Source: Aliiroseovarius sp. F47248L (GTDB taxonomy: Bacteria > Pseudomonadota > Alphaproteobacteria > Rhodobacterales > Rhodobacteraceae). Taken from it: a stretch of DNA of 64,000 bases. Below the pieces are notes generated by a model. That model was not told the origin of the DNA. It saw nothing but the letters and a program-made list of their open reading frames with translations, and did not search any database. The stretch covers positions 1-64,000 of the forward strand of contig NZ_JALKBF010000001.1 of NCBI RefSeq assembly GCF_023016085.1, written 5' to 3'. This document shows, piece by piece, positions 47,897-53,101 of this stretch; the first letter of the stretch is position 1, and each line of letters opens with the position of its first letter. The position numbers were made by a program, and so were the translations under genes.

Positions 47897-48370
47897 TCAG
47901 GCAGACGGAAAGGGGACATCCAGCATCTTGCAGATCGCCCCGTTCATTGACCTGTAGGTGCGAAATCCCATTGCTTCGTAATAGGCTAGGCCTTCGCCGT
48001 TTGTAGCGCCGATGGTTGCATCAATGTTTCCGATGCCCGCATTCTGGGCTGCTTTGATCGTTGCGGCGAACAGGGCTCTCCCAACGCCCCGACGGGCGGC
48101 GCTGGGTTTGACATGCGTGCCGATAATACCCCAGCCGGGTGTGACGTCGTAAACGTTGCCTTCGGCCGCGCGGGTGAGGGACTGCAGCCCAAGGATTGCA
48201 CCGTCGTCACCCACGGCAACGCTGCATTGGATGCTATCGGGATTACCAATATAATACTCGCGTACGTAGGCTTCATCCCATGGTCTTTGTCGTTTTCCAA
48301 GGTCCGCCAACTCCTTCAGAAACGCGCTAATCTCTGCCGCGTCTTCTAGCGTCGCATGTATTGTTTCCAT
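47897..48370 (-). CDS. GNAT family N-acetyltransferase
   Basis: The 157-aa protein has the GNAT acetyl-CoA site (VKPSAARRGVGRALFAATIKAA) and LAYYEAMGFRTYRSM. The substrate is unknown. It lies 25 bases downstream of the dehalogenase gene on the same strand, so it is probably in the same transcript. Confidence 0.85.
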   Translation of the reverse strand: METIHATLEDAAEISAFLKELADLGKRQRPWDEAYVREYYIGNPDSIQCSVAVGDDGAILGLQSLTRAAEGNVYDVTPGWGIIGTHVKPSAARRGVGRALFAATIKAAQNAGIGNIDATIGATNGEGLAYYEAMGFRTYRSMNGAICKMLDVPFPSA

Positions 48371-48395
48371 TCACGGCTTTCCGTTTTTCGATTGG

Positions 48396-51300
48396 CTAAA
48401 GGTCAATTTCGATCTCGCCATTCGGGTCAGCAGCCCTGCTTTGGCACAAGATCATGTTTTCTGCACGCTGTGCGTTGGACAGTACGAAGTCGCGATGTTC
48501 AATACCACCAGAGATTACACCGCATTTACAGACGCCACAGATGCCGTCCGAACATTTCACATCAACATGGATGCCCGCCGCGTTCAGGGCATCTGCTGCT
48601 GTTTCGTCACTTGCCACTTCTATCCGTCGCCCATCTTTGAGTTTGAGCGTAAACGGGTGGTTTTCGTGTTCGCGTTGGTCAGGTGGATTGAAATACTCCA
48701 AATGGCGCGCTGCTTCCGGGATTCCCTGCCGTTCCGCGGCCTCCATCACTGCCGACATGTAGCGGTCCGCCCCACAGCAATAGACTTGGGTGTTTGTTGG
48801 AGCACCTGACAGGATAGCATCGAACTCCGCCCGCGAGCCTTCATCCGAGAAATGCAAATGGACACGGTGCGCCCATGGCATCGCCGCAAGATCGTTCAGA
48901 AATCCGGCATCCACCCGGCGACTGACCGAGTAATGCAGCGCGAAATCGGCCTCAATGGCGTGCAGGCGGTGAGCAAATGCGATCATCGGCGTGATGCCGA
49001 TCCCACCGCCCATCAGGAAGGTTTTGGTCGCGTTTTCGTCCAACTCAAAATGGTTGATCGGCTTGGCGACGAACACCTTCCGTCCTTCAGTGAAAATCCG
49101 ATGAAGCAATGCTGACCCACCGCGTCCATCAGGTTCGCGCAATACTCCGATCTGATAGGACATCCGGTCCGCCGGGTCGCCAGAAAGAGAATACTGGCGC
49201 AGAAAATCGGGCGAGACCAACACATCCAGATGCGCCCCGGCTGTCCATGCAGGAAGTGGCGCACCATCAACGGATGAGAACTCGTATTTGGTGACACCTT
49301 CGGCCATGGGTTCAACCCGGTTCACAACCAACTGCACCACGGGGGCTTCGTTGGGCATTGTGTAACGGTGGATCATGGAGCTTTCGCCAGCCGCCAGCCG
49401 CGCGCGATACTCTTTGGCCGAGATCATCGCCTGATAGGCTGCGATTCCGGCCTCACGATCCATCGGGAAGGGATAGGGATAAGGCGGAGGGGCGAGAGGG
49501 GCGGGGTACACCGCCAGCGTTTGATCTTCGTATTTCAGATCCAGATTACGGTTCAGACCGCGCCGGTTCACGGGTTCGTCAGACGGATGATAGCCGCCAT
49601 CTGGTCCGAGTTTCAGATCCCACCACCATTTCTTCGTGTCGTTCAGCTCTCCGTTGCCGATGGCATCATCCAGCTTGGCCAGCACCGGGGCAGCCCCGGG
49701 AAGGTTCGAAGCCGCCCACCTGAATGGGGCTTGGGCAAATAGGCCTTCAAGGTTCCACGGGCAGGTTTTCATACAGCGCCCACACATTGCCCCACCGGGT
49801 TGGGTCACGCGATAGGTCGTGCATTTCTGGCTGTCTGACTTCCAGATCTCATAACCGTTGAACATCAGCTTCGGCCCGGCGGTGATCGCGCCTGACGGAC
49901 ATTCTCGCGCACATTTGTTGCAGGCTTCGCAGAACCGTTGCAGGCCGAAGTCGATCGGCTTGTCATGCGCCATCGGCATGTCCGTCGTCACAACCCCCGA
50001 TTTTAGCCTCGGGCCGAGATAGGGGTTCAGGATGACTTCGCCGATCCGGCTGACCTCGCCCAACCCTGCAAGTAACAAAAGGGGTGGTTGCAGAACGGTC
50101 CCGTCCATCACTGTATGCGCCTTGGCAGAATAGCCAAGGTTGCGGATTTGCTGTGCGATCACGCCACCGATCAGCGAGAACCGCAGATAGGCGCGCATGG
50201 ATTGACTGACGGCGATCCAGTCATCGCCCGACGCGCCCTCCATCGTCTCAAATCCCTGATCGACGATCATTGATACCGCCTGATCATGCGTGGGTTCAAT
50301 CTCGGCTCCCGTGGTGTCGTGGCTGTACCACGTCCAGTCCGGGCACTGGCTGGTACCTACCGCGTCGATGCCAAGGAAATAGCTGGCGGCCTTCAGAGCA
50401 TTGGCGTTTCCGACCGGATCATTGGGTCGCCTGTCCTGATCCGCTATCGGTCCATCTTGCAATGGCGTTAGCAACCCTAGCGCGCGGCGCTGGGCATAGC
50501 TGGGGGCTGCCTTGCGAACATACATACCGCCGGATGAATGCTCTTGCAGCTGTTTTCCCATATCCCCGAACTGGGCGCGGGCGAACATGTCGGCACGTTT
50601 CGGAACGCGGGCCACATTGGGTTCATCAATGTATGTGGTCGGCGTGTCGACCCGCTTCAATCGCTCGAACGGGTGGGCACCCATCGCATAGTCACGTTTC
50701 GCATAAGGATCGCGGTTCAGTGCCGATTTCGTTGTCTTTGTTCCCAACCACCACGCCGGGCCGTTGATCTGGTGCCAAGGCTGTTTCGACAAAGGCGCAA
50801 GAGGTTTATCGGCCAACAGCGCCATATCCGTCGTTACTGCCGCCAACCCAAACCGCGGACCGATCCAAGGTGCAACGATCTGTCCGTTTTCCTCAGTTGC
50901 CAACCCGCCTGCCACTGCCAACCGGTTTAAATCCACATCCGTCGCAGCTCCGGTATGGGCTTTGGCATCAAAGCCCAAAAGGCGGATGTAGTTTGCGATG
51001 ACAATCGCGGTCTCTGCCCCCAACAGACAGGCGCGTTGGTTCTGTGCATCCATGATCCAGGCAGCGCCCGGTTCATCCGGCTTGGGATCGCGGTGGTGCT
51101 CATACAGAAACACGATGGCATGCCGGTGGTTGCTTCCCGGACGGGGTGTGGCCTTGAGGCTTGCACGCAGCTCGGCCATCAATGTGTCGATCCCGGCGGC
51201 CAACGTGCGGACTTCGCGATGTTCCAGCGAGGTTACGAGCGCTTCGATGTTCGTGTTGATGATTGGCTGGTCAAGAAAATCATCTGATTCCAAATCCGCG

Positions 51301-51602
51301 ATGCCCACCATGGACGCATCCGAGAAGTATCCAAAGGCTTTAAGATGTTCACTTCGCTCAGCAAGATCATCAGGGATGGTTGCCCGTGCCGGGTTCACAT
51401 CGCCGTCACGAATTGCGTCCAGCGCGGCTTGATAAGGGGCCATGGCGTTGACGATGCTGTCGGGCTTGTCCGGGCGATCAAACCGGACGGGCAACACAGG
51501 GGGGATGCCGGACAAATCGGGGGAAGCCTGCGTGCGGATCAGCCCTTCAAGCGGATAAGGCCCCATATGCACCGGGCGGGTCTTAGTCGAAAACAGCCGC
51601 AT
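48396..51602 (-). CDS. Fused reductive dehalogenase-oxidoreductase (BhbA/NpRdhA-like)
   Basis: The 1068-aa protein starts at ATG 51602; a TTG five codons upstream is possible. Residues ~1-330 and ~400-555 are two related corrinoid-type (RdhA/QueG-like) halves, each with a KAHT and a VTTDM segment. Two [4Fe-4S] motifs follow: Cys558/561/564/568 and Cys594/607/610/614. The C-terminal third is a phthalate-dioxygenase-reductase module: RQYSLSG for FMN, MGGGIGITPMI for NAD, and plant-type [2Fe-2S] Cys1017/1022/1025/1053. Tyr426 (DWTWYSHD) and Lys494 are candidate catalytic residues. No Tat signal is present, so it is cytoplasmic. It would need cobalamin. Confidence 0.92.
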   Translation of the reverse strand: MRLFSTKTRPVHMGPYPLEGLIRTQASPDLSGIPPVLPVRFDRPDKPDSIVNAMAPYQAALDAIRDGDVNPARATIPDDLAERSEHLKAFGYFSDASMVGIADLESDDFLDQPIINTNIEALVTSLEHREVRTLAAGIDTLMAELRASLKATPRPGSNHRHAIVFLYEHHRDPKPDEPGAAWIMDAQNQRACLLGAETAIVIANYIRLLGFDAKAHTGAATDVDLNRLAVAGGLATEENGQIVAPWIGPRFGLAAVTTDMALLADKPLAPLSKQPWHQINGPAWWLGTKTTKSALNRDPYAKRDYAMGAHPFERLKRVDTPTTYIDEPNVARVPKRADMFARAQFGDMGKQLQEHSSGGMYVRKAAPSYAQRRALGLLTPLQDGPIADQDRRPNDPVGNANALKAASYFLGIDAVGTSQCPDWTWYSHDTTGAEIEPTHDQAVSMIVDQGFETMEGASGDDWIAVSQSMRAYLRFSLIGGVIAQQIRNLGYSAKAHTVMDGTVLQPPLLLLAGLGEVSRIGEVILNPYLGPRLKSGVVTTDMPMAHDKPIDFGLQRFCEACNKCARECPSGAITAGPKLMFNGYEIWKSDSQKCTTYRVTQPGGAMCGRCMKTCPWNLEGLFAQAPFRWAASNLPGAAPVLAKLDDAIGNGELNDTKKWWWDLKLGPDGGYHPSDEPVNRRGLNRNLDLKYEDQTLAVYPAPLAPPPYPYPFPMDREAGIAAYQAMISAKEYRARLAAGESSMIHRYTMPNEAPVVQLVVNRVEPMAEGVTKYEFSSVDGAPLPAWTAGAHLDVLVSPDFLRQYSLSGDPADRMSYQIGVLREPDGRGGSALLHRIFTEGRKVFVAKPINHFELDENATKTFLMGGGIGITPMIAFAHRLHAIEADFALHYSVSRRVDAGFLNDLAAMPWAHRVHLHFSDEGSRAEFDAILSGAPTNTQVYCCGADRYMSAVMEAAERQGIPEAARHLEYFNPPDQREHENHPFTLKLKDGRRIEVASDETAADALNAAGIHVDVKCSDGICGVCKCGVISGGIEHRDFVLSNAQRAENMILCQSRAADPNGEIEIDL

Positions 51603-51603
51603 A

Positions 51604-52644
51604 TCAGGACGGGTCAACAGGCGTAGCTTTGCCGGAATAAGCGGTTAGATGGTCTGGTGGTATCTCCTCATCCCCATAAAGGCCCAGAAGAATGCCAACT
51701 TGTCCCGAACCGCCCTTGCGACGCTCTGCGATCTGCGCGTCAGAGATTGTGGTGCACTGAGATTGCCGCCGCACCCAGCAAAACAGCTTATCATACATCG
51801 CGGCAATAAGGTCGGCGTGGTCATCGGATGCGCCGAAAACCGGGTGTGGATCGCGGCGTTCGTCTTCGGACCGGACCACCGGCTTGATGTGGTTGTGGCC
51901 ATACATGTCATGATAGGGCGCAGGCACGATATAGGGCCAGTTGGGCTTGATGAAGCTGACATGGGCGCACCACGGAGCTTTGCCTTTCTGCGTCTCGATG
52001 AAATCTATGGTGCGGCTGGTCAACCAAGGGGTTTCGCGGTCTTCTTCACGAATATTGGCGGGTTTGTCGGCATGCATCACCAGAAACCCTGAGGCGATGT
52101 CGCCTTCGTCGGTCACGCCCGCGTTTGCATTATCATGCCACGGGTTTGCAGATGGGTAACCTTTGGCCTTAAGGTATTCGTTATAAGGTGATCGTTTCTG
52201 ATCATAGAAGCCCGCCGGCCCCTCGGCCCAAAGACCTTCATCACGGATCCAGACATCAAAGCCGCATTCCTCGACCCGCGCACCGATCACGCTGTCGTGC
52301 GACAAGCCCAGCCAGGCCATGCCTTCGACATCGGCTTTCATATGGGTCTTACTGATCAACCAACAGCCCATGCCAGCTTTGCGCAGATGATCGCCTATTG
52401 TCATTTCTCCGACCTTCAGCGGGAAGTTGTTGAACGACGCGCCGTGAGACGAGACATAGCGCCCTGTATACGTGCTCATCCGACTGGCACCACAAACAGG
52501 AGACTGGCAGTAAGCACGATTAAACCGCACGCCCCGTGCGGCCACACGATCAAAATTTGGCGTCCTTAACGTTGGGTGCCCCGCGCAGCTGAGGTAATCG
52601 AACCGCAGCTGATCATACATGATGAAAAGGATGTTTAGAGCCAT
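51604..52644 (-). pseudogene. Sulfatase/phosphonate monoester hydrolase-like, internally deleted
   Basis: The 346-aa frame has the sulfatase N-terminus (MYDQLRFDYL), the formylglycine motif CGASR in SPVCGASRMSTYTGRY and SKTHMKAD. Full enzymes are about 500 residues and have a second metal site (DHGD) that is missing here. The last ~60 residues (FCWVRRQ, TTISDAQIAERR, VGILLGLY) look like the family's C-terminal tail. An in-frame deletion of about 150-200 residues therefore seems more likely than simple truncation. It ends one base before the dehalogenase ATG. Confidence 0.75.
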
Positions 52645-52771
52645 GCCCGCGCCTCCTCCGGCATATCATTCTGTTCGCAATGGAATCAGTTGAGCATGGA
52701 CGGAAAGGGGGCGCTACCCCATATTGGATTCAATATCCAAATCTGGGGACGGTTGTTAAACCTGATATCGA

Positions 52772-53101
52772 TCAGGTCGCTTGTTGGACCCGTTCGATAT
52801 AGGCACGAAGCTCGCCCGCTTCTTGCCGGGCATCGCGTAGACCATCCATGGCGGCGCTCAGTTCTGCTTCGGTCTGTTGCAACTGGTTGGACATCTCCGC
52901 TTCACGTTGCTGCAGATATGTCATGGCCTGATCGCGGGTTTCTTCGGCTTCATGAAGGGCTTGTGCCATTTTGTCCAATTCGTCCATTTCGGTTCCAGCG
53001 ACCTGAACGAACCGATGGATCAGCCAATGGGCGAACCATCCAAGCGCAAAGGCCACGAACAAGATGATGGCGGTGACGATGATAAACTCGGTTCTGTTCA
53101 T
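52772..53101 (-). CDS. Membrane-anchored coiled-coil protein, 109 aa
   Basis: One N-terminal membrane segment (FIIVTAIILFVAFALGWFAH) is followed by a long charged coiled coil (MDELDKMAQALHEAEE onward to the end). It lies 24 bases downstream of the OmpA-family gene and is probably co-transcribed. It could be a cell-envelope spacer; function unknown. Confidence 0.75.
   Translation of the reverse strand: MNRTEFIIVTAIILFVAFALGWFAHWLIHRFVQVAGTEMDELDKMAQALHEAEETRDQAMTYLQQREAEMSNQLQQTEAELSAAMDGLRDARQEAGELRAYIERVQQAT

Follow-up and report, generated by a model that had tools for sequence, protein, structure and literature searches.

The 64,000-nucleotide (nt) stretch analysed here, hereafter the window (positions 1 to 64,000 of contig NZ_JALKBF010000001.1 of Aliiroseovarius sp. 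F47248L), carried on its reverse strand a gene, rdhA, predicted to encode a corrinoid reductive dehalogenase fused to a phthalate dioxygenase reductase (PDOR)-type reductase. As listed in Table 1, it lay behind an arylsulfatase-like gene that had lost part of its coding sequence, and was followed by a gene for a GNAT acetyltransferase. The rdhA frame was open to the stop at 48396, and an alternative in-frame start, TTG 51617, would give a product of 1073 amino acids (aa); the RdhA residue numbers used here count from this TTG, those from the ATG being lower by 5. Intervals of 25 nt (48371-48395) downstream and 1 nt upstream separated the gene from its neighbours, and 127 nt (52645-52771) preceded the sulfatase gene. 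Judging from the 1-nt spacing, translation of rdhA is likely coupled to that of the sulfatase gene. The ratio of nonsynonymous to synonymous substitution rates (dN/dS) of rdhA against four congeners was 0.063-0.082, indicating that the gene has been maintained under purifying selection.

Table 1. Features of the rdhA locus in the window and of the related operon at locus L102
Feature	Position	Strand	Remark
rdhA: fused corrinoid reductive dehalogenase / PDOR-type reductase	48396..51602	-	1068 aa from ATG 51602
Catalytic RdhA core	49656..50315	-	TIGR02486 match, residues 435-654
PDOR-like FMN/NAD/[2Fe-2S] module	48414..49361	-	residues 753-1068, 2pia and Fer2
Two [4Fe-4S] motifs, CEACNKCAREC and CGRCMKTC	49752..49931	-	residues 563-622
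Sulfatase stop TGA (51606-51604) / rdhA ATG (51602-51600)	51600..51606	-	1 nt between them
Arylsulfatase-like gene	51604..52644	-	346 aa here, 551 aa in L002
Deletion junction in sulfatase gene	51828..51829	-	placement uncertain by a few bases
GNAT acetyltransferase	47897..48370	-	same strand, 25 nt 3' of rdhA
Sulfatase/alkyl-sulfatase/aryl-alcohol-type dehydrogenase/rdhA within protocatechuate 4,5-cleavage operon	L102:2161-14736

Against TIGR02486, the reductive dehalogenase model of NCBIfam, RdhA scored 201 bits (cut-off 160), and the Pfam models Fer4_7, Fer4_16 and Fer2 matched above their cut-offs; of the profile searches proposed in an earlier note on this DNA (the original prediction), that for Fer2 was thus positive and the dehalogenase was recognised by TIGR02486, whereas Pfam RdhA, FAD_binding_6 and NAD_binding_1 gave no match at E ≤ 1e-3. 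When the PDB was searched with phmmer, NpRdhA (6zxu, and 4ras alike) aligned to residues 163-743 plus 5-114 with an E value of 1.5e-159, and phthalate dioxygenase reductase (2pia) matched the reductase module with an E value of 2.4e-48. The alignment ran from NpRdhA residue 1, and by homology the extra N-terminal vestigial corrinoid-like domain was present. The cysteines of the [4Fe-4S] motifs were C563, C566, C569 and C573, and C612, C615 and C619 with C599; those of the [2Fe-2S] centre were C1022, C1027, C1030 and C1058. By eye on the same alignment, all six NpRdhA active-site residues (F291, S422, M423, Y426, K488 and R552) were kept, S473, M474, Y477, K539 and R603 of RdhA being the counterparts of the last five; the equivalence of S422, M423 and Y426 was also checked by script. 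The layout proposed originally, in which a self-sufficient corrinoid enzyme joins two [4Fe-4S] motifs and an FMN (flavin mononucleotide)/NAD/[2Fe-2S] reductase in one alphaproteobacterial polypeptide, was therefore borne out, as were the placement of its N-terminal part within the RdhA superfamily and, with the genus Aliiroseovarius, the host.

No rdhB-type anchor gene adjoined rdhA, the gaps on this strand being too small by eye, as had been claimed, and a respiratory RdhA was rejected on this ground; an NpRdhA-type split system was rejected because the reductase is fused here. The nearest small membrane-type open reading frame (52772-53101, reverse strand, 109 aa, a single hydrophobic stretch by eye) has homologues about 6 kb away from rdhA in L111 and L112. 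By eye, no twin-arginine (Tat) signal was visible in the RdhA N-terminus. CobN was encoded in the genome above cut-off, so that a corrinoid route exists there.

A homologue from Jhaorihella thermophila (P0100) shared 70% identity with RdhA over 1069 columns with 3 gaps. The characterised enzyme of that species, JtRdhA, is NADPH-dependent with 1:1 coupling, is active in air, contains FMN, [2Fe-2S], two [4Fe-4S] and cobalamin, and takes bromine or iodine off ortho-halogenated phenols, with 3,5-dibromo-4-hydroxybenzoate and 3-bromo-4-hydroxyphenylacetate as best substrates; the chloro analogues tested inhibited it and were not turned over (PMC10463259). Its substrate panel consisted of commercially available compounds, with no sulfated one in the table (PMC10463259). 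RdhA is thus one more member of a widespread, already characterised type, and brominated phenols, guessed at originally as the substrate class, gain support from the characterised enzyme. It tempers the comparison that P0100 is linked to the enzyme of PMC10463259 by species and domain order and not by accession. From its sequence, the window protein is very probably an NADPH-driven, self-sufficient debrominase of ortho-halogenated phenols, a cytoplasmic enzyme that would debrominate and deiodinate its substrates. Electrons would pass from NADPH through FMN, [2Fe-2S] and the two [4Fe-4S] centres to the corrinoid; the reduced cobalt would take the halogen, and Tyr477 with Lys539/Arg603 would give the proton, yielding the phenol and bromide. 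In this description cofactors, electron source, bromo/iodo preference and activity in air are taken from the J. thermophila enzyme (PMC10463259), while domains, residues, intactness, deletion, linkage and co-occurrence were computed.

The gene upstream of rdhA, on which the original prediction was silent although it lies 1 nt away and carries a deletion, appeared to be a broken sulfatase. Relative to its counterpart in L002 (L002-L004 and L006-L008 are named Aliiroseovarius relatives), it had lost 205 codons in frame, corresponding to residues 273-477; the pairwise alignment scattered the gap, and the 272/478 join was taken from the two translations instead. The intact L002 gene has GGCGCT at both edges of the deletion. 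A CxxSR motif (C51-G-A-S-R), which we take to be the formylglycine-type motif of class I sulfatases, was kept, its C, G, S and R being invariant in 38 of 38 homologues. An Asp-His pair present in all 38 (D329/H330 in the relative's numbering) lay inside the deleted codons, so that the predicted metal ligands were lost, this role being taken from the pair named for a related sulfatase (PMC5870055). In the retained part, His235, which is also invariant in 38/38, was replaced by Asn. A genuinely short enzyme was rejected, since the relative has 551 residues and the loss is internal. The intact L002 sulfatase scored 285 bits against the PehA model NF045661 (equivalog cut-off 900), and identity as this phosphoric/sulfuric ester hydrolase was not upheld. 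Elsewhere in the window's genome (L076, G000:C1:2503198-2504796) there was a 57%-identical, full-length sulfatase without internal stops, which, judged by sequence, might take over from the paired copy that is broken.

Within the genus, 19 of 21 genomes carried rdhA; of the two lacking it, one was only 56% complete. By coordinate comparison a sulfatase gene abutted it on the same strand in ten of these 19, intact in eight, deleted in the window and in two pieces in G401. The eight intact paired sulfatases formed one clade (support 100/99), and in the RdhA tree the paired genomes belonged partly to the genus's basal clade and partly to that of the window genome, a clade of seven unpaired genomes separating the two; this distribution would fit an ancestral pair lost several times, gains also being possible. 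A second sulfatase copy at E ≤ 1e-80 was found in none of the eight intact-pair genomes, while nine of the 11 others had an unpaired copy (Fisher p 0.0007, a value that ignores kinship). At the G401 locus (L110) rdhA itself was split in two frames, and in G408 (L082) it had an internal TGA, in either case by decay or assembly error.

Beyond the genus, rdhA at E ≤ 1e-200 occurred in 149 of 394 genomes of the family, sampled at nearly one per genus, and was thus not rare; a protein search gave at least 4501 RdhA homologues at E ≤ 0.001 among 7997 candidates scored, with lengths of 1056-1086 aa among the 120 matches listed. The sulfatase was carried by 111 of the 149 rdhA-positive genomes versus 71 of the 245 rdhA-negative ones (odds ratio (OR) 7.2, p 1e-18), compared with 126/149 versus 171/245 for a choline-sulfatase control (OR 2.4, p 0.001), and stratification by choline sulfatase gave an OR of 6.7. 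By eye, the sulfatase lay within 10 kb of rdhA in at least eight of the 149 genomes (G000, G373, G064, G379, G176, G251, G057 and G137), against a rough chance expectation of about 0.6 that assumes 1.15 copies and 4 Mb genomes, whereas choline sulfatase was never seen within 10 kb of rdhA among the matches listed. The sulfatase was directly upstream of rdhA in L037/L101 and in L044, where an oligopeptide-type ATP-binding cassette transporter gene comes before it, and same-strand linkage was also observed in L102 and L103. Sulfatases linked to rdhA in the genus, in L044 and in L037 together with L102/L103 branched at three or more separate positions of the tree, interspersed with unlinked sequences, which indicates that the linkage arose more than once. 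A pairing of sulfatase and reductive dehalogenase was not found in the literature by a search covering open-licence PMC papers; single cells of Desulfatiglans have both gene types in one group, with no linkage in the passages concerned (PMC6129605).

The fullest arrangement was that of L102 (G379), where one strand encoded, in order, LigA, LigB, a Gfo/Idh-type oxidoreductase, a sulfatase, a metallo-beta-lactamase alkyl-sulfatase, a short-chain dehydrogenase/reductase (SDR) and RdhA, followed by a PIG-L protein, LigK aldolase, 4-oxalomesaconate tautomerase and a lactone-hydrolase-like protein, so that protocatechuate 4,5-cleavage genes flanked rdhA on both sides. LigA, LigB, LigK and the tautomerase passed their curated cut-offs and the lactone-hydrolase-like protein fell below; the SDR was nearest to coniferyl-alcohol dehydrogenase, just under the cut-off (228 bits, cut-off 242), and the PIG-L protein is presumably GalB-like. 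In L103 the order was sulfatase, alkyl-sulfatase, a DctM transporter with an NMT1-like binding protein, SDR and rdhA, and in L029 rdhA lay about 2 kb upstream of homologues of the PIG-L, LigK and tautomerase genes (72, 68 and 59% identity to L102). Among the loci searched, LigA and LigB were found at L102 only. In L045 (Amylibacter cionae) rdhA lay near genes that by eye resemble a tripartite tricarboxylate-type transporter cluster; some 7 kb upstream, in the same orientation, was a gene for a 52% homologue of the L102 alkyl-sulfatase. An XdhB/XdhA-like molybdenum hydroxylase pair occurred at 28 of 71 rdhA loci, among them most Ruegeria loci, mostly just downstream of rdhA (for example L059:13304-14203 and L026:14676-16931) and in many cases with a LysR gene upstream in divergent orientation; among NCBIfam models the pair came nearest to XdhB and 4-hydroxybenzoyl-CoA reductase alpha, always below cut-off, and it may carry out the next step of a pathway.

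The catabolic RdhAs characterised to date act on ortho-halogenated phenols (PMC10463259), and the sulfate of a sulfated bromophenol would therefore presumably have to leave first. Taken together, the neighbourhoods point, with a probability of about 0.4, to a modular pathway in which roseobacter RdhA-PDOR debrominases take part in breaking down sulfated bromophenols of the lanosol-4,7-disulfate type, with steps as in the L102 operon and with lineages keeping subsets of them. Lanosol-4,7-disulfate bears one aryl and one benzylic sulfate, as follows from its name and structure. It is a red-algal metabolite with two bromines (PMC9322897), and its breakdown would need exactly the L102-type steps. 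Sulfate would be removed by an arylsulfatase, in some cases assisted by an alkyl-sulfatase that acts on the benzylic ester, the aryl-alcohol-type SDR dehydrogenase would begin side-chain oxidation, RdhA would debrominate the freed phenol, and protocatechuate 4,5-cleavage would mineralise the ring. In the genus, the ancestral state was probably a sulfatase-rdhA pair with rdhA in second place, whose sulfatase would free the phenol hydroxyl before RdhA strips the ortho bromine; for this sulfate-removal step, including the natural substrate and the order of the two reactions, the gene arrangement makes a tentative case, somewhat short of an even one. In the window strain the paired sulfatase would have been recently inactivated by its in-frame deletion, the debrominase half being kept and alone working from the locus. 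If correct, such a pathway would couple bromine cycling to sulfur cycling at the surfaces of algae.

Several observations count against this pathway, and some of them favour detoxification, for which the chance is nearly even. The enzyme would then debrominate toxic bromophenols (or bromotyrosines) from algae or sponges, and the product would be excreted or drained via homogentisate; a red alga has been found to contain 3,5-dibromotyrosine (PMC9322897). In the window genome no PcaH (protocatechuate 3,4-dioxygenase beta), no LigA and no above-cut-off PobA was found, while HmgA (homogentisate dioxygenase) was present above its own, in a search for ring routes that covered these four proteins only. 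The term catabolic, used in the original prediction, therefore holds for the enzyme type, whereas a growth role is hypothetical for this genome, and detoxification, or drainage via homogentisate, for example from bromotyrosine, is equally likely. What speaks for the modular pathway instead is that in L102 and L029 rdhA stands beside protocatechuate 4,5-cleavage genes.

The two genes might also be coincidental neighbours, both marking alga-associated roseobacters, with the sulfatase scavenging sulfur from unrelated aryl sulfates; we consider this plausible, if on the doubtful side. Apart from the 71 rdhA-negative genomes that carry it, the sulfatase tended to co-occur with choline sulfatase, the control, as well (OR 3.0), which suggests a common niche, and kinship was handled in the co-occurrence analysis only by the near one-genome-per-genus sampling. 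When 71 rdhA genome loci were searched both by BLASTP, using the window's truncated sulfatase as query, and by tblastn, using that of L102 and requiring 50% coverage, the same five were returned (L002, L003, L004, L037 and L044); at the other 66, at least three of which had under 1.1 kb of upstream sequence, no sulfatase was found, and in L104, L105 and L106 it lay within 10 kb of rdhA in no obvious operon. Inside the genus, where rdhA was retained despite loss or breakage of the sulfatase, the pairing was missing from nine of the 19 rdhA-bearing genomes, eight of which had a 66-69% sulfatase homologue elsewhere and one (G395) none. As it is absent at many rdhA loci, the pairing is not essential. 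Coincidence is opposed by the linkage in excess of the rough expectation, the lack of any such linkage for choline sulfatase among the matches listed, its occurrence in more than one sulfatase branch, and the second-copy contrast within the genus.

That the deletion is an assembly artefact, the window genome having a normal sulfatase-rdhA pair, is improbable. The deletion is seen in a single assembly, and the retained codons of the truncated sulfatase were as constrained as intact copies (dN/dS 0.069 versus 0.068 for an intact pair), so that the break is either very recent or an error; the loss, however, is in frame and lies between GGCGC repeats, an invariant histidine has changed separately in the retained part, and the genome is 99.99% complete in 7 contigs. 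Another class III corrinoid enzyme, performing a QueG-like reduction in place of dehalogenation, is highly unlikely, and epoxyqueuosine reductase was rejected, because the QueG model TIGR00276 matched weakly (23 bits, cut-off 200) whereas the dehalogenase model exceeded its own cut-off and the six NpRdhA active-site residues were kept.

The GNAT gene downstream of rdhA recurred after rdhA in L002, L004 and L005, the only three of the 71 loci where BLASTP found it, and was rejected as a pathway member for lack of support.

Among known systems, the Silicibacter pomeroyi arylsulfatases 4upl, presumably SpAS2, and 4upi came nearest to the intact paired sulfatase among proteins of solved structure; no connection of theirs to dehalogenation was apparent, and the window copy differs by its missing 205 codons. 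The entry 4upi is SpAS1 (PMC5870055). With respect to RdhA, BhbA of the bromoxynil pathway of Comamonas sp. 7D-2, compared by description, shares the PDOR-type reductase at its C-terminus, but is plasmid-borne within a full catabolic cluster (PMC10463259), whereas rdhA in the window has no adjoining ring-cleavage genes. NpRdhA of Nitratireductor pacificus (4ras, 6zxu) resembles the window protein in the RdhA part, including the N-terminal segment, and in the six active-site residues, yet belongs to a clade without fused reductase, with chains of 704-725 residues (PDB; PMC10463259). Of the two parallels drawn originally, that with BhbA therefore stands and that with NpRdhA does not extend to the fusion. 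Ros_A3X954 of Roseobacter sp. MED193, compared by description, is a Roseobacter-group RdhA without Tat signal that debrominates 2,6-dibromophenol (PMC13101508); its [4Fe-4S] motifs lie at 283-345 as against 563-622 in the window protein, so that its N-terminal part is much shorter. JtRdhA is of the same length class as the window protein and shares its order of domains and its active-site residues; the description of JtRdhA (PMC10463259) does not contain the word sulfatase, whereas rdhA in the window sits behind a sulfatase gene, here broken. New here are the pairing with a sulfatase gene, the breakage of that pairing in this strain and the association of the two genes across the family.

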